Origin: Armatimonadota bacterium
Lineage (GTDB): Bacteria > Armatimonadota > Zipacnadia > UBA1398 > JAKPQA01
Length of the DNA stretch: 59,273 bases
Direction: 5' to 3'
Assembly: GCA_029547025.1 (NCBI GenBank)
Contig: JAKPQA010000256.1
Location: 1 to 59,273 of the forward strand
Numbering within the stretch: position 1 is the stretch's first letter; each line of letters opens with the position of its first letter. The notes below the pieces were generated by a model. The model was given only the letters and a program-made list of their open reading frames with translations, searched no databases and was not told the DNA's origin. The position numbers and the translations under genes are program-made. Shown one piece after another: positions 34,425-42,007 of the stretch.

Positions 34425-34454
34425 TTGACACCGGCACCGCCTCCGCCCTATACT
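34425..34454 (+). promoter_or_regulatory. trp operon promoter
   Basis: A perfect -35 box TTGACA at 34425-34430 is followed after 18 nt by TATACT at 34449-34454, one base from the -10 consensus. Transcription would start near 34461 and produce a leader of about 300 nt before trpE, carrying the attenuator. Confidence 0.85.
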
Positions 34455-34489
34455 CACCGCCAACATCGACCGATTGGGAGGTGACCGAG

Positions 34490-34597
34490 GTGCCTGTGGG
34501 CCCTAGCGTTCGCTATCGCGCATGTTCCGCGTCAGTCTTGTCCTGCTGGCGTTGGTGGCGTAGCTCTGGCCGGGCACTCCGGGCTCACCTGCCTTAG
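34490..34597 (+). CDS. trpL: trp leader peptide
   Basis: A 35-codon open frame starting at the GTG at 34490, placed 7 nt after GGGAGG (34476-34482 region), and ending TAG at 34595-34597. The peptide contains CWRWWRSS: Trp codons at 34547-34549, 34553-34555 and 34556-34558, three in four codons, in a peptide of 35. Trp is rare, so this density is diagnostic for a leader that senses charged tRNA-Trp. It lies between a strong promoter and a terminator upstream of trpE. GTG codons at 34481 and 34496 are alternative in-frame starts but fit the ribosome binding site less well. Confidence 0.88.
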   Translation: MPVGPSVRYRACSASVLSCWRWWRSSGRALRAHLP

Positions 34598-34638
34598 CAC
34601 CGTCACCAACAGGCCGAGACCCAATCGCCGGGGTGCCC
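34551..34638 (+). promoter_or_regulatory. trp attenuator: leader pairing and antiterminator
   Basis: Two competing structures are readable. The stretch 34551-34560, which overlaps the Trp codons, pairs over 10 positions (one G-U) with 34601-34610. The stretch 34572-34582 pairs over 11 positions (one G-U) with 34628-34638, which is the 5' arm of the terminator. A ribosome stalled at the tandem Trp codons would cover roughly up to 34570, leaving 34572-34582 free to form the antiterminator. A ribosome reaching the stop codon would cover that region and allow termination. Confidence 0.85.
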
Positions 34639-34664
34639 TAGAGAGGGCCCTCGGCTTTTCGTTT
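34627..34664 (+). terminator. Intrinsic terminator of the trp attenuator
   Basis: Arm 34627-34638 pairs with 34645-34655 over 11 base pairs with one bulged T and one G-U; the loop is TAGAGA. A U-rich tail TTTTCGTTT follows at 34656-34664. It lies about 95 nt before trpE. Confidence 0.88.
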
Positions 34665-34758
34665 GCCGCTACACCACCGCGAGGGCCCGCCAGGTCAGCC
34701 GGCACCGATCGCCCCCTCAGGGGCCGACCAGCCAGACCGACGGACGGAGATGCCCTCG

Positions 34759-36264
34759 ATGACCACCCCCAGCCGTGAGGAGTTCCGCCAGCTCTGCCAA
34801 CGCGGCAACCTGGTCCCGGTCTACCGGGAGATCATCGCCGACACAGAGACCCCCGTATCGGCACTACGGCGGCTCGGAACCACCGGGTATGCCTTTCTCC
34901 TCGAGAGCGTGACCGGCGGCGAGAACCTGGCCCGCTACTCGTTCCTCGGCGTCGACCCCCAGGCCGTGGTCACCGTCAGGGGCCGCCAGGTGGTGGTGAA
35001 CGCCGGCGGCCTTCAGCAGCGCCACGAGGTGCCGAAGGACCAAACGCCCCTCGATGTGCTGCGCGGCCTGCTCGCGCACTATCGCTACGTGGCGCTGGAG
35101 GGCCTGCCTCGCTTCTGCGGCGGGCTGGTTGGGTACCTCTCATACGACATCGTCCGCCACTTCGAGGACCTCCCGAACGCCCCGAACGACGACTTGGACC
35201 TGCCCGAGAGCACGCTCATGCTCGCCCACTCGCTGGTCATCTTCGACCATGTCTCGCACACCATGAAGATCCTGGTGAACGCCCACGTCGATGGCGATCC
35301 GGACACCGCGTACAGCATGGCTGAGGCGAAGATCGATGACCTGACGCGCCGACTGGCACAGCCCCCCGAGAACCTCCGGCCCCTCTCGGTTCTTGCGCGC
35401 GATGTGGCCGTACCGAGTACCCTCCCCGAGGGGGTGACCTCGAGCATGAGCCGCGAAGCCTTCGAGGCCGCCGTGACGAAGTGCAAGGAGTACATCGCGG
35501 CCGGCGATGTGATTCAGGTGGTGCTCTCTCAGCGGCTCACGGTCGACGACCCCGGCGATCCGTTCGATGTCTACCGCTGCCTGAGGTGTGTGAACCCGTC
35601 ACCCTACATGTACTACCTCTCGCTCGGATCGGTGCACATCGTGGGGTCCTCGCCCGAGATCCTGGTGACCTGCGACCAGGGAAAGGCCCGTGTCCGGCCC
35701 ATCGCCGGCACTCGACCCCGCGGCAAGACCCGCGAGGAAGATCTTGAGCTCGAACGCGACCTGTTGGCCGACGAGAAGGAGCGTGCCGAGCACATTATGC
35801 TCGTGGACCTGGGGCGCAACGACCTCGGGCGAGTATGCGAGTACGGGACCGTGCAGGTCACCGAGAGAATGGTGGTGGAGCGGTACTCACACGTCATGCA
35901 CATCGTCTCGGACGTGACCGGCCGCCTTCGTAACGGCCAGGACCAGTTCGACGTGCTCGCCGCCACGTTCCCGGCCGGTACGGTCTCGGGTGCCCCCAAG
36001 ATCCGGGCCATGGAGATCATTGACGAGCTCGAGCCGGTCCGCCGGGGCCCTTACGCTGGCGCGGTCGGCTACTTCGGCGTCTCAGGCACGATGGATACCT
36101 GCATCACTATCCGTACCCTCGTGTTCGCCGGCGGCCGAGCCTATCTGCAGGCCGGAGCCGGGATCGTGGCCGACTCGGTGCCCGAACGCGAGTACCAGGA
36201 ATGCCTCAACAAGGCGCGCGCCCTGCTGCGGGCGATCCACATGGCCAAGGAGTCTGCCCAATGA
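34759..36264 (+). CDS. trpE: Anthranilate synthase component I
   Basis: A 501-residue enzyme that, with TrpG, converts chorismate and glutamine to anthranilate, the first step of tryptophan synthesis. The feedback-inhibition motif LLES is at 47-50 ([18 protein letters not shown]). The chorismate-binding half has [35 protein letters not shown] and [20 protein letters not shown]. The length is typical. The ATG at 34759 is preferred to that at 34750 because GGAG is 9 nt away rather than immediately adjacent. Its stop overlaps trpG by 4 bp (ATGA). Expression is controlled by the attenuator upstream. Confidence 0.96.
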
Positions 36265-36848
36265 TCGTCGTCATCGACAACTACGATTCGTTCACGTACA
36301 ACCTCGTGCAGTACCTGGGCGAGCTGGGCCAGGAAATCCGCGTGTTCCGCAACGACGCCGTCACGGTGGACGAGATCGCGCGACTCGAACCGGACCACAT
36401 CGTGGTGTCGCCCGGGCCCTGCACGCCCAAGGAGGCCGGGGTCTCCAACGATGTGCTCCGCGTCCTCGGCGGCGAGGCGCGGATCCCGACCCTCGGAGTA
36501 TGCCTCGGGCACCAGTGCATGGGCCACGTGTTTGGAGGCAATGTCGTCCGGGCGCGACGCCTCATGCACGGAAAGACCTCCGCCATATACCATGACCGCC
36601 AAGGGCTGTTCGAGGGGCTCCCGTCACCCTTTGAGGCCATCCGTTACCACTCGCTGCTCGTCGAGCGCTCGTCTCTTCCAGACTGCCTCGAGATCACGGC
36701 CGAGACCATGTGGGAGGAGCGGGAGATCATGGGACTCCGGCATCGCGAGTTCCCCATCGAGGGAGTGCAGTTCCACCCGGAGTCGATCGCCACCGAGCAC
36801 GGCCACGATCTGCTGCGGAACTTCCTCCGCATGAAGCGCGGCGGATGA
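36261..36848 (+). CDS. trpG: Anthranilate synthase component II (glutamine amidotransferase)
   Basis: A 195-residue class I glutamine amidotransferase that supplies ammonia to TrpE. The catalytic triad is Cys81 in [10 protein letters not shown], with His172 and Glu174 in FHPESI. The start [14 protein letters not shown] is standard. Its ATG overlaps the trpE stop, coupling the two subunits. It could also serve PabB, as in bacteria with a shared subunit; no pabB is present here. Confidence 0.95.
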
Positions 36849-36862
36849 GGGAGGGCTCGCCC

Positions 36863-37873
36863 ATGACCATGCTCGAAGCGCTGGAGACTGTCGCGGCAGG
36901 GGGGAGCCTGACTCGCGACCAGGCTCACACCGTAATGGGGCTCATCATGGACGGCGGCGCGACTCCGGCACAGGTGGGAGCCCTTCTGATGGGGCTCCGG
37001 CTCCGAGGCGAGACGGTGGACGAGGTGACCGGTTTCGCCTTGGCGATGCGCGAACACGCCACCCACGTCCAGTGCCAACGGACCCCGCTCGTCGATACAT
37101 GTGGCACGGGGGGCGACGGGCTGGGAACGTTCAACATCTCGACGACCGCCGCCTTCGTTGCCGCCGGTGCGGGCGCCGTCGTCGCCAAGCACGGAAACCG
37201 CGCGGCATCGAGTCACTGCGGAAGCGCCGACGTGTTGGCCGAACTCGGAGTACGGCTGGACCTGGCGCCAGACGATGTGGCGCGATGCGTGGACGACATC
37301 GGCATCGGTTTCCTGTTCGCCCAGGCGCTACATCCGGCCATGAAGCACGCCGCGGGCCCACGCCGGGAACTGGGCGTGCGCACCGTCTTCAACATCCTCG
37401 GGCCCCTCTCGAACCCCGCGGGTGCCACGCGACAGGTGCTGGGCGTGGGGTCGGCATCGCTCATGGCTCTGGTGGCTGAGGTCAGTGCGGCCCTCGGGAC
37501 GGAACGCGCCTTCGTGGTGCACGGTGGCGGGATGGACGAGATCACCACGCTGGGCCCCACAACGGTGGTCGAGGTCCGCGACGGCATGACGCGCCAGTAC
37601 GACCTATGCCCCGAGGACCTGGGCCTGGCACCCGCGACGCTGATGGACCTGGCGGGGGGCACTCCTGCCGAGAACGCCGACATCCTGCTCCGCGTTCTCT
37701 CGGGCGAGCCCGGACCTCGGCGCGATGTCGTGTTGCTGAACGCGGCGGCCGCCATCGCCGCCGCAGACCTCGCCAGCAGCCTGGCTGAAGCCGTCCCCAT
37801 AGCCCAAGAGAGCATCGACTCGGGCGCCGCGCTGGCCAAGCTCGAGGCACTAAGGAGGTTTGCCGCTCCGTGA
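36863..37873 (+). CDS. trpD: Anthranilate phosphoribosyltransferase
   Basis: A 336-residue enzyme that joins anthranilate to PRPP. It shows DTCGTGGDGLGTFNIST, the PRPP-binding region and KHGNRAASSHCGSADVL, and NPAGATRQVLGV. The ATG at 36863 has GGGAGGG 7 nt upstream; an in-frame ATG at 36845 overlaps the trpG stop and would add six residues. The stop overlaps trpC (GTGA). Confidence 0.95.
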   Translation: MTMLEALETVAAGGSLTRDQAHTVMGLIMDGGATPAQVGALLMGLRLRGETVDEVTGFALAMREHATHVQCQRTPLVDTCGTGGDGLGTFNISTTAAFVAAGAGAVVAKHGNRAASSHCGSADVLAELGVRLDLAPDDVARCVDDIGIGFLFAQALHPAMKHAAGPRRELGVRTVFNILGPLSNPAGATRQVLGVGSASLMALVAEVSAALGTERAFVVHGGGMDEITTLGPTTVVEVRDGMTRQYDLCPEDLGLAPATLMDLAGGTPAENADILLRVLSGEPGPRRDVVLLNAAAAIAAADLASSLAEAVPIAQESIDSGAALAKLEALRRFAAP

Positions 37874-38652
37874 TCCTCGATGACATTGTGGCTCACAAGC
37901 GAGACGATCTGGCACGGCGGAAGCTGGAGGCCCCGCTCGGCGCGCTCAACGCGCCGACCAGCCTGGCGCCCCCGAGCCTCGCCGCGGCCCTGGCGGGCCC
38001 CGGTGTCTCGCTGATCGCCGAACTCAAGAAGGCATCGCCATCGAAGGGGCTCCTGCGGCCAGACTACGATCCGCAGGCGCTCGCCCGGGCCTACCAGCGG
38101 GGAGGGGCTGCCGCGCTCTCGTGCCTGACCGACGAACGCTTCTTCCAGGGGCATGCCGATCACCTGGAGGCGGCTCGTGCCGCCAGCGGCCTGCCGGTAC
38201 TGCGGAAGGACTTCACGCTCGACGCCTACCACGTGCACGAAGCCCGGGCCATGGGAGCTTCGGCCGTGCTGCTCATCGCTGCCATCCTGACCGACGCCGA
38301 GTTGGCGCAGTTGCTCGGCGTGGCCCGCGGTCTCGGACTGGACGCGCTGGTCGAAGCGCACGATGTTTCCGAAGCCAGACGCGCTCTCGACTGCGGCGCC
38401 CAGATGCTGGGCATCAACAACCGCGATCTGCGCGACTTCTCGGTCGACCTACACACCACCGAGCGCATCCTCGATGCATTGCCCAGCCGCCCGCCCATCG
38501 TCGTGGCCGAGAGCGGCATCCACACAGCGGCCGACATGGCCTATCTGCGCCAGCTCGGCGTGCAGGCCGCCTTGGTCGGCGAGGCGCTGGTGACGGCCGC
38601 CGACCCCGCCGCCAAAGCGCGCGAGCTGGTCGAGGGAGGCCGGCCGCTATGA
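37870..38652 (+). CDS. trpC: Indole-3-glycerol phosphate synthase
   Basis: A 260-residue TIM barrel that closes the indole ring. Catalytic motifs include ELKKASPSKG, LRKDFTLDAYHVHEARAMGA, LGINNRDLRDFSVDL and VAESGIHTAADM. It starts at a GTG overlapping the trpD stop and is separate from TrpF, not fused as in enteric bacteria. Confidence 0.95.
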   Translation: MILDDIVAHKRDDLARRKLEAPLGALNAPTSLAPPSLAAALAGPGVSLIAELKKASPSKGLLRPDYDPQALARAYQRGGAAALSCLTDERFFQGHADHLEAARAASGLPVLRKDFTLDAYHVHEARAMGASAVLLIAAILTDAELAQLLGVARGLGLDALVEAHDVSEARRALDCGAQMLGINNRDLRDFSVDLHTTERILDALPSRPPIVVAESGIHTAADMAYLRQLGVQAALVGEALVTAADPAAKARELVEGGRPL

Positions 38653-39281
38653 CGCGGGTGAAGATCTGCGGCCTGACCCGAGCCGCGGACGCCGAGACTG
38701 CCCTCGACGCGGGCGCGGACGCGCTGGGCTTCGTGTTCGCCAAGAGCCCACGCCAGGTTCCTCCCGACCTCGTGCGGTCGATCGTGGCCGATCTCCCGCC
38801 GTTGGTTGCGACGATCGGCGTGTTCGTCGATGCGCCGCCCGATGACGTGCGCCGGGTGCTGGATGAGTGCGGCCTGAGCGGCGCCCAGTTGCACGGGTCT
38901 GAGAGCGAGGAGGATATCCGCGCCGTGGGCGCCGGGCGCGTCATCAAGGCCTTCCGCATCTGCCACTCGGCCGAACTCGAGTCGGTCCGTGATTGCCCGG
39001 CGGGCCTGGTGCTCATCGAACCCTACGTCGCCGGCAAGCTCGGCGGTCCCGGCGTCCCTCTCGACCTGGATCTTGCCGGCCAGGCCGTGGCGACGGGCCG
39101 GCGCGTTGCGCTGGCGGGCGGGCTCTCGCCCGCGAATGTACTCGACATCGTCCGCCGAGTGCGGCCGCACGCGGTCGACGCCAGTAGCGGCGTCGAGCAA
39201 GCACCCGGCGTCAAAGACCATGCCAAGATCCGTGACTTCATCGCCGCCGTCCGCGAGGCCGACGGCATGGCCGCCGGCTGA
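38649..39281 (+). CDS. trpF: Phosphoribosylanthranilate isomerase
   Basis: A 210-residue TIM barrel that performs the Amadori rearrangement between TrpD and TrpC steps. The catalytic Cys is Cys7 in KICGLTR and the general acid is the Asp in [18 protein letters not shown]. The ATG overlaps the trpC stop by 4 bp. The order C-F follows the pathway closely. Confidence 0.94.
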
Positions 39282-39312
39282 CCGGCCGGAGGCCAACAAG
39301 GGAGGCAGGGAG

Positions 39313-40533
39313 TTGCCGAACGCAAGTGTTGCCAGTCATCCCGGCAGCCGGCCGGGCTACTTCGGCGAGTTCGGGGGGCGGTTCGTCCCCGAGACGGTCA
39401 TGGCCGCTCTCGACGAGCTGGCGGAGAGCTACGCCCGCGCCAAGGCCGATCCCCAGTTCCAGACGGAGCTCAGTGAGCTGCTGCGCGAATACGTCGGGCG
39501 CCCCACGCGGCTCTATCTGGCCGAACGTGTCACCAGGGACCTCGGCCTGGGCGCGGTGTTCCTCAAGCGCGAAGACCTGTGCCACACCGGGTCACACAAG
39601 CTCAACAACGCCATCGGCCAGGTGCTTCTCGCGAAGAAAATGGGCAAGAAGCGCATCATCGCCGAGACCGGAGCCGGGCAGCATGGCGTCGCCACCGCCA
39701 CGGCCGCGGCACTGCTCGACCTGCCGTGCGAGGTCTACATGGGCGAAGAGGACATGCGGCGGCAGGAACTCAACGTCTTCCGAATGCGCCTGCTGGGCAA
39801 ACAGGTGATCCCCGTCTCCTCCGGCACGAAAACGCTCAAGGATGCCATCAACGAAGCGTTCCGCGACTGGGTCACCAACGTCGAGCACACACACTACGTC
39901 ATCGGGAGTGTCGTCGGTCCCCACCCATACCCTGAGATGGTGCGCGACCTCCAGTCCGTCATCGGGCGTGAGGCGCGGGAGCAGTGCCTCGACCGGGTGG
40001 GGAGACTGCCCACCCACGTCATCGCGTGCGTGGGCGGAGGATCCAACGCCATGGGGATCTTCCATCCGTTCGTCGGGGACCACCAGGTCGAACTCATCGG
40101 CGTCGAGGCCGGTGGACGCGGGGACGCGCCTGGGCTCCACGCGGCCACCCTGTGCCTGGGAGAACGTGGCATGCTCCATGGAGCTCGCACTTACGTCATC
40201 CAGGACGAGTCCGGGCAGATCATGCCCACACACTCGGTCTCGGCTGGCTTGGACTACCCCGCCGTCGGGCCCGAGCACAGCTACCTCAAGGACTCGAAGC
40301 GTGCGCGGTACATCTCGGCCGACGACACCCAGGCACTACACGCGTTCCGCTATCTCTCCGAAACCGAGGGCATCATCCCCGCGCTCGAATCGGCCCATGC
40401 CGTAGCGGGACTGCTGCGCATGGCGCCCGACCTGGGGCCCGATGCCGTCGTCATCGTCAACCTCTCGGGGCGAGGCGACAAAGACGTGCAGGAAGTGGCC
40501 GCCATCATGGGCACGAGCAGGGGGGTGGCGTAG
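39313..40533 (+). CDS. trpB: Tryptophan synthase beta chain
   Basis: A 406-residue PLP enzyme of the trpB1 type that condenses indole with serine. PLP lysine lies in [18 protein letters not shown]; other signatures are [44 protein letters not shown] and [10 protein letters not shown]. The start is a TTG at 39313 with GGGAGG 7 nt upstream; homology begins 16 residues later at [15 protein letters not shown] and no ATG or GTG fits. It follows trpF after 31 nt. Confidence 0.94.
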
Positions 40534-41337
40534 ATGGGACGCCTCGCATCGCGGTTCGCGGAGCTGAAGGCCCGCAACGAGGGGGCCCTGGTGGCCTATG
40601 TCACCGCAGGCGATCCTTCCATCGGGCGATCCCTCGATGTCGCGAGAGCCATCGTGGACTCGGGAGCGGACATCCTCGAACTCGGCGTGCCGTTCAGCGA
40701 CCCCGTGGCCGATGGGCCGACGATCCAGGTGGCGAGCCAGAGAGCACTAGAGGCGGGCACCACCCCGAGGAAGGTCCTCGACCTCGTGGCGAGGCTCCGG
40801 GAGGACACTCAGGTACCCGTGTGCCTGTTGGCATACGGGAACATCGTCCACCGGTATGGCTATGCGCGGTTCGCCGCCGATGCGGCCGCCGCCGGCGTGG
40901 ATGGCGTACTCGTGTGTGACCTGCCGCCCGCCGACGATGACGAGTGGTCGACCAGCGCCGCAGGGGCCGGCATCGACACCATCTACATGGTGGCACCGAC
41001 GAGCACCACGCTCACGCTGGAACAGGTAGGTCGCCGGGCCTCCGGCTTCGTATACTGTGTGTCGAGAACCGGCACCACGGGCACGCGCGCCGAGCTGCCG
41101 CCCGATCTGGAGCAACTCGTCCGGCGAGTGCGCGAACGCGCCGCGGTCCCGGTCTGTGTGGGGTTCGGTATCTCGACGCCCGACCACGTGCGCGCGGTGT
41201 GCCGCATGGCTGATGGCGCCATCGTGGGCAGTGCGGTGGTACGGGTCGTCGAGGAACACGGCACGTCTGCCGACCTGCCCGAGGCCGTGGCATCGCTGTG
41301 CCGGCAGTTGAAGGAGGCCACGCGCGGTGGGCGCTAG
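40534..41337 (+). CDS. trpA: Tryptophan synthase alpha chain
   Basis: A 267-residue TIM barrel that cleaves indole-3-glycerol phosphate to indole, channelled to TrpB. The catalytic Glu is in DILELGVPFSDPVADGP and the catalytic Asp in CDLPPADDDEW; VGFGISTPDHVRAV and GAIVGSAVVR bind phosphate. It begins directly after the trpB stop with no gap. No terminator follows; the toxin-antitoxin genes start 21 nt later. Confidence 0.95.
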   Translation: MGRLASRFAELKARNEGALVAYVTAGDPSIGRSLDVARAIVDSGADILELGVPFSDPVADGPTIQVASQRALEAGTTPRKVLDLVARLREDTQVPVCLLAYGNIVHRYGYARFAADAAAAGVDGVLVCDLPPADDDEWSTSAAGAGIDTIYMVAPTSTTLTLEQVGRRASGFVYCVSRTGTTGTRAELPPDLEQLVRRVRERAAVPVCVGFGISTPDHVRAVCRMADGAIVGSAVVRVVEEHGTSADLPEAVASLCRQLKEATRGGR

Positions 41338-41358: not shown

Positions 41359-41670
41359 ATGGGTGTCGATGCTCTGCGGGTGGTGCCAGAGGCCGAGCTC
41401 GCAGCCCTACGCGAACGCTACGGCGTGCGCTCGCTCCGTCTGTTCGGTTCGGCTCTCCGTGGCGCACTCCGCTCCGACAGTGACCTGGATGTCCTCGTCG
41501 AGTTCCGCCCGGACCAGCGGACAGGCTTCTTCCGGTTCATGCGGCTTCAGGCGGAACTGACCACGCTGCTGGGACGTCAAGTCGACCTTCACACGCCGGC
41601 CAGCCTGAGCCGCCACTTCCGCGAGGAGGTTCTCCGCACTGCGGAGGTCATCTCTCATAACCCCAACTGA
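41359..41670 (+). CDS. mntA: MNT-type nucleotidyltransferase antitoxin
   Basis: A 103-residue minimal nucleotidyltransferase. It has the motif GSX10DXD with Gly30-Ser31 and Asp42/Asp44 (FGSALRGALRSDSDLDVLVE), the pattern of MntA antitoxins that neutralise HEPN toxins by adenylylation. GGGAGGTC precedes the ATG. It sits 21 nt after trpA and 19 nt before the HEPN gene. MNT genes also occur as lone, non-toxin modules, but the HEPN neighbour settles the reading. Confidence 0.85.
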   Translation: MGVDALRVVPEAELAALRERYGVRSLRLFGSALRGALRSDSDLDVLVEFRPDQRTGFFRFMRLQAELTTLLGRQVDLHTPASLSRHFREEVLRTAEVISHNPN

Positions 41671-41689
41671 CCGCGTTCGCCTGGAGCAT

Positions 41690-42007
41690 ATGCTGGAGTC
41701 CGCTCTGGCGGCGATGCGCGACCTCGGTGGCATGTCGGCAGAGCAGCTTCGGGCGAGCCCGGCAGTCGCGCGGTCGATCATCCGCTGTCTCGAGATAGTG
41801 GGCGAGGCAGCCGCGCAAGTCTCACCAGAGACACGCGCTAGCGCGGACCACGTGCCCCGGGCCGACGTGGTGGCGATGCGGAACCGCCTGGTCCACGCCT
41901 ACTGGGATGTCGATCTGGATATCGTGTGGGACACAGTCACTATGCACTTGCCTGACCTGCAGCGCCAGCTTCCTGGCCTTCTCGAGGACGAGGGCGAGGG
42001 GCCGTGA
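41690..42007 (+). CDS. hepT: HEPN-domain RNase toxin (HepT-like)
   Basis: A 105-residue helical protein with the HEPN RNase motif RX4HXY: Arg64, His69, Tyr71 in MRNRLVHAYWDVDLD. The Tyr is the residue AMPylated by MntA-type antitoxins in characterised pairs. Related proteins often begin a few residues earlier (DRVRLEHML is in frame upstream) but no usual start codon is there, so the ATG at 41690 is used. The stop overlaps the next gene by 4 bp (GTGA). Confidence 0.82.
   Translation: MLESALAAMRDLGGMSAEQLRASPAVARSIIRCLEIVGEAAAQVSPETRASADHVPRADVVAMRNRLVHAYWDVDLDIVWDTVTMHLPDLQRQLPGLLEDEGEGP

Follow-up and report, generated by a model that had tools for sequence, protein, structure and literature searches.

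A probable ribosome-mediated attenuator with an in-frame antiterminator arm upstream of the trp operon of an Armatimonadota bacterium

In this work, we analyzed the leader that precedes the trpE-G-D-C-F-B-A operon of an Armatimonadota bacterium in a stretch of 59,273 nucleotides (contig JAKPQA010000256.1 of assembly GCA_029547025.1; hereafter, the window). Within the leader region, at 34425-34659 and directly upstream of the operon, we found three mutually exclusive helices, and the best explanation for this arrangement is a ribosome-mediated transcription attenuator of the trp operon, to which we assign a probability of about 0.93. An initial annotation, made from the sequence alone, had described here a promoter, a GGGAGG Shine-Dalgarno (SD) sequence, a 35-codon leader with a W-R-W-W run, two pairings and a U-tailed terminator, and all of them were recovered in place (Table 1). 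The region thus combines an SD and a short open reading frame (ORF) with tandem Trp codons, whose translation is predicted, with an intrinsic terminator between leader and first gene, an antiterminator that excludes this terminator and is released when a ribosome sits on the control codons, a cognate biosynthetic operon downstream, and conservation in relatives at the phylum level, as expected of a leader-peptide attenuator.

Leader anatomy and folding of the proposed switch

The promoter is the only promoter-like site found by scanning between 34300 and 34800, against 0.0 expected (mean of 50 shuffles of the region). The leader ORF would encode the peptide MPVGPSVRYRACSASVLSCWRWWRSSGRALRAHLP, followed by the stop codon, with its Trp codons at 34547, 34553 and 34556. 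The 5' arm of the antiterminator starts 16 nt past the first base of the last of these codons and lies 13-23 nt before the stop. The terminator is a bulged GC-rich hairpin followed by the T tail TTTTCGTT; a simple terminator scanner did not list it, probably on account of the short tail and the bulged stem. Further downstream, the complement CGAGGGCCC of the terminator 3' arm is within chance expectation when compared with shuffles (p 0.106), and no second terminator follows it.

Table 1 Features of the trp leader and operon of the window, and related leaders with two terminators
Feature	Position	Strand	Basis
Sigma-70-type promoter TTGACA-N18-TATACT	34425-34454	+	Near-consensus, 11/12 consensus
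SD GGGAGG of the leader ORF	34476-34481	+	Sequence; 8-nt spacer to GTG 34490
trpL-like leader peptide ORF, 35 codons plus TAG, W20-R21-W22-W23	34490-34597	+	Start GTG 34490, TAG 34595-34597
Control codons TGG CGT TGG TGG	34547-34558	+	Sequence; Trp clusters recur upstream of trpE in the phylum
First pairing, 5' arm (segment 1; holds Trp codons 22-23)	34551-34560	+	10 consecutive pairs with 34601-34610, including one G.U
First pairing, 3' arm	34601-34610	+	Folding and pairing tests
Antiterminator 5' arm (segment 2), within the leader reading frame	34572-34582	+	11 consecutive pairs with 34628-34638, including one G.U
Antiterminator 3' arm (segment 3), making up most of the terminator 5' arm	34628-34638	+	Folding and pairing tests
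Intrinsic terminator, hairpin 34627-34655 plus U tail (segments 3:4)	34627-34659	+	-22.5 kcal/mol; folding with ribosome positions
CGAGGGCCC, perfect complement of terminator 3' arm 34645-34653	34680-34688	+	Possible segment 5 counterpart (weak), 9 bp
trpE (anthranilate synthase component I), first gene of the operon	34750-36264	+	TIGR00564, 579.9 bits (cut-off 517.7)
trpG, trpD, trpC, trpF, trpB, trpA	36255-41337	+	Profile matches; over cut-off TIGR00566, TIGR01245, NF001377 (TrpC), TIGR00263, TIGR00262; trpF best match NF002298, slightly under cut-off (198.6 vs 215)
Leaders with two terminators in series			G005, G006, G036, G043, G007, G028, G032, G033, G045, G244, G250, G256, G258, G259, G065, G051

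The helices of the window were compared with those found in 5000 dinucleotide shuffles of the spacer. An equally strong first pairing was observed in 1.5% of the shuffles and an equally strong antiterminator in 0.28%, and none of the 5000 matched both jointly. We also folded growing transcripts after removing the sequence covered by a ribosome from the 5' side, using textbook values for the footprint lengths. When the RNA was exposed from 34566, 34569 or 34572, i.e. with the last Trp codons under the ribosome, the antiterminator formed with a probability of 0.9 for RNA ends at 34639-34645 and still of 0.65-0.89 at 34651, and the terminator prevailed only from 34654 on. The antiterminator is therefore competitive, prevailing over the terminator for RNA ends 34639-34651, and the release of its arm when the Trp codons are covered bears out the earlier proposal of attenuation by ribosome stalling. 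Exposure from 34580 abolished the antiterminator (probability 0) and exposure from 34577 left it at 0.31 and 0.16 at two lengths and at 0-0.01 at all others; the terminator formed in both cases. With the Trp codons uncovered (RNA from 34540 or 34547), the first pairing and the terminator reached probabilities of 0.99 and 1.0, respectively. In the untranslated full-length RNA (34461-34660), the first pairing was mostly displaced by other 5' structure (probability 0.02) and the terminator formed with a probability of 1.00. Taken together, these folds follow the classical logic, in which a stalled ribosome turns the switch on, and a ribosome that passes the Trp codons, or the lack of translation, leaves it off.

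From these elements we infer transcription start, leader translation, stalling and termination in the cell as follows. RNA polymerase would initiate near 34461, with a ribosome trailing on the leader ORF. Under scarcity of charged tRNA-Trp, the ribosome would stall at Trp 20, 22 or 23, masking the 5' arm of the first pairing and leaving 34572-34582 free to pair with 34628-34638 once this segment is made, which would remove the 5' arm of the terminator before its 3' arm exists; with the terminator so blocked, polymerase would read through into the trp genes. When Trp is plentiful, the ribosome would reach the stop codon at 34595, still masking part of 34572-34582 and, after its release, the first pairing would enclose this arm in a hairpin. 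With the ribosome at the stop or released, the terminator would form and transcription would end near 34660.

Several observations weigh against this interpretation. The family to which the window belongs consists of one genome, so that no relatives are available for covariation of its particular helices. Its order-mate G001 has a different leader with unsupported helices, and none was seen before trpE in its order-mate G002. Besides, a looser measure, which accepts any upstream partner for the terminator arm, was not significant for the window (p 0.23), which is singled out by the specific helix test and not by this measure alone. Finally, at equilibrium the full-length terminator is favored over the antiterminator (-36.5 vs -32.4 kcal/mol); as the finished terminator wins at equilibrium, the switch relies on the order of synthesis. 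In the order-mate G002 (locus L002), a divergent trpG-like start (reverse complement MILVIDN) lies just 5' of trpE, with no convincing Trp leader.

Recurrence across Armatimonadota and alternative explanations

The label "Armatimonadota-like" that the initial annotation had given to this genome was correct, the relatives found including named Armatimonadota, and the conservation that it had proposed to look for does exist: across the phylum, trpE is repeatedly preceded by tandem Trp codons, a promoter, an antiterminator and a terminator. Up to 900 bases upstream of trpE were taken from 131 genomes of the phylum, with the antisense strand as control. Short ORFs in which 5 codons include three or more Trp were present in 30 of the 131 upstream regions and in 2 of the antisense controls; under a weaker criterion, two or more Trp within 5 codons, these counts rose to 76 and 38, respectively. 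For further analysis, 47 leaders were chosen by eye on their peptides (Trp clusters and position) after terminators and sequences had been seen, and not by their antiterminator helices. A scored terminator lies downstream in 44 of these 47. Of the 44, 34 have a TTGAC-type promoter no more than 170 nt before the Trp codons, at 62-122 nt upstream of the first of these codons, whereas control stretches taken further upstream gave a promoter in 1 of 44 cases.

The best helix between spacer and terminator 5' arm was then compared with shuffled spacers, each of 34 genera being represented by a single leader. The antiterminator helix exceeded the shuffles with a Fisher p of 3e-8 (11 genera singly below 0.05), and the first pairing with a p of 1.7e-4 (5 genera singly below 0.05). 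The helix signal is thus strong at the level of the phylum, although many individual leaders are not significant. No covariation count was drawn from an alignment of seven leaders (families f43-f45), in which the terminators were one base out of register and few pairs varied, nor from an alignment of six leaders. The f43-f45 leaders (L031, L123, L125, L137, L139, L141 and L153) share a peptide pattern around W-x-W-R-x-S-N-x-S-G-A; the underlying DNA, which holds CTCCA...GTGGAG, would allow segments 1 and 2 to fold into a compact hairpin right past the Trp codons. The contig of one of these trp leaders also carries a group II intron match (L031:400-620, minus strand; RF02005, 165.7 bits).

Across the 34 genera, the median distance from the last Trp codon to the start of the antiterminator arm is 19 nt (interquartile range 16-24.5). 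In 76% of them this distance falls within 9-26 nt, compared with 37% in shuffles (maximum of 400: 59%), a contrast somewhat flattered by a range that was fixed after the distances were seen. The distance to the stop codon, on the other hand, varies from 6 to 57 nt across leaders. Two layouts result: in some families, mostly f6, f7, f10 and f24, the arm lies past the stop, whereas in f1 (the window), f4, f22, f25, f28, f38, f39 and f43-f45 it lies within the reading frame. These data indicate that what is conserved is the length of RNA that would lie under a stalled ribosome.

The same comparisons bear on the possibility of a plain terminator accompanied by a Trp reading frame arisen by chance, trpE being driven from a promoter further downstream. 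Helices and TGG-rich frames do come easily in high-GC DNA, as the antisense count under the weaker criterion illustrates. Nevertheless, the excess of strict Trp clusters and of promoters over their controls, the spacing kept throughout the phylum and the failure of any shuffle to reproduce both exclusive helices argue against a chance frame, and the promoter scan of the window against a downstream promoter, so that we regard this explanation as very improbable.

A second alternative, in which a protein (TRAP-like or a Trp repressor) or a tRNA (T-box) reads the leader in place of a ribosome, appears more improbable still. tRNA sensing is indeed used by other operons of the class: T-box matches occur in 44 of its 46 genomes, several of them immediately upstream of leuA. 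At the window leader, however, there was no match to the T-box model (RF00230). TRAP, the protein expected for a TRAP-controlled trp leader, was not detected in the 46 genomes of the class. Neither did we detect TrpR over the cut-off in 255 genomes of the phylum, where a single partial match remained below it (G222), or in the 46 of the class. Moreover, sensing by protein or tRNA would leave the ordered succession of promoter, SD, ORF and Trp codons unexplained. The Rfam Trp_leader model (RF00513) gave no match in 501 bases of the window (E up to 10) or in nine related loci (E up to 1). In the genome of the window (G000), T-box matches below the gathering score lie just 5' of leuA-type genes (G000:C361:69681-69987 and G000:C72:52886-53158). 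Judging from sequence, this genome may employ tRNA sensing at those leuA-type genes and ribosome sensing at trp. Searches for Leu or His runs upstream of leuA and hisG across the class revealed no convincing leader. Equally improbable is a leader acting mainly on the translation of trpE, or through its peptide in trans, with attenuation playing a minor role: S. meliloti peTrpL is reported to act in trans (PMC7298713), but in the window trpE is separated from the leader by a U-tailed terminator, whose competition with the antiterminator is of the kind that attenuation requires.

A second trpE-like gene in the genome of the window (C327) has no Trp-rich leader nearby. Downstream of trpA, at 41359-42007 of the window, two short ORFs resemble, as judged by eye, a nucleotidyltransferase (MNT) and HEPN-type pair.

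Tandem terminators in related leaders

A second strong terminator precedes trpE in 16 of the 44 leaders. In these, the 3' arm of the first terminator pairs with the 5' arm of the second from the same genome at a mean of -20.0 kcal/mol, better than the -17.5 kcal/mol obtained with second terminators from other genomes (permutation p 0.0003, or 0.004 with ten representatives only), a preference that was not seen in f45 and G065. A relay may operate in such leaders: stalling at the Trp codons would lead to the 2:3 pairing and free the 3' arm of the first terminator (4), which would then pair with the 5' arm of the second (5). A single stall would thereby disable two terminators, and the off state could terminate twice. 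Equilibrium folds of the G244 leader behave in this way, with probabilities of 0.00 for the first terminator and 0.96 for the 4:5 pairing in the stalled state, and of 0.99 and 0.00, respectively, with the ribosome at the stop. Akin to it, relay-like switching was obtained for G250, G256, G258, G065, G036, G006 and G028. The relay was absent from the stalled-state folds of G007, G032, G045 and G259, and in G005, G033, G043 and G051 the 4:5 pairing formed in both states. As similar paired terminators could equally stem from plain duplication, the possible relay is a lead; if confirmed, this tandem-terminator form would be a new architecture. It is tempting to speculate, at somewhat less than even odds, that Armatimonadota attenuate trp without a Trp repressor by means of two architectures, a third of the examined leaders being tandem-terminator relays and the window representing a one-terminator form with a far-downstream stop and an arm-locking pairing, both of which were proposed in PMC1183508.

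Comparison with known attenuators

The authors of a 2010 survey (PMC2965389) knew of demonstrated leader-peptide systems from no phyla other than Proteobacteria and Actinobacteria, to which they added a his leader in Firmicutes. The initial annotation had considered a leader of this kind undescribed for such genomes, which holds to the extent that we found no earlier report of trp attenuation in Armatimonadota in the open-access literature. Leader-peptide systems in many Armatimonadota genera, beside T-boxes on leu genes, widen the known range of this regulation, and the coexistence of trp leaders with leu T-boxes suggests that each operon has its sensing device selected separately.

With the trpL leader of Escherichia coli, the window shares tandem Trp codons, a U-tailed terminator, an antiterminator that uses the terminator 5' arm, and a distance of 16-17 nt from the last Trp codon to the antiterminator arm. 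The same code applied to E. coli placed the trpL arm 5-9 nt after the stop and the leuL arm 26-31 nt before it, both 17 nt after the last control codon. The window, with its arm ahead of the stop, hence departs from the enteric trp layout and follows that of leuL, which differs from it in having Leu codons and heading the leu operon (leuA next). The earlier claim that an arm inside the leader frame is unlike the enteric design therefore stands with respect to trpL and fails with respect to leuL: the in-frame arm is a known layout, here serving trp, and the topology is only partly new.

Outside Proteobacteria, the trp attenuators of Corynebacterium and Streptomyces (PMC1262725) are alike in their classical trp attenuation, double or triple UGG and GC-rich terminators; they belong to another phylum, and a gGCC-rGCy-GGCC triple is described for them. 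The first pairing of the window would play the part described for the Salmonella his attenuator (PMC1183508), which has His codons and an extra hairpin rather than a pairing that encloses the arm. In that same work, Elf and Ehrenberg proposed that low basal read-through calls for a far-downstream stop or a blocking structure, and connected TrpR with the high read-through of trp in E. coli. E. coli does possess this repressor, as the control genome in our searches, whereas none was detected in Armatimonadota. Having a late stop and a locking pairing in such a phylum, the window agrees with this model without being a test of it; families with the trpL-like layout are also devoid of detected TrpR. 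The phylum thus offers a natural test of the prediction that repressor-free attenuation needs a late stop or a locking hairpin. Altogether, the leader of the window is most likely a classical ribosome-mediated trp attenuator with a leu-like layout, new for its phylum as far as the literature found shows.
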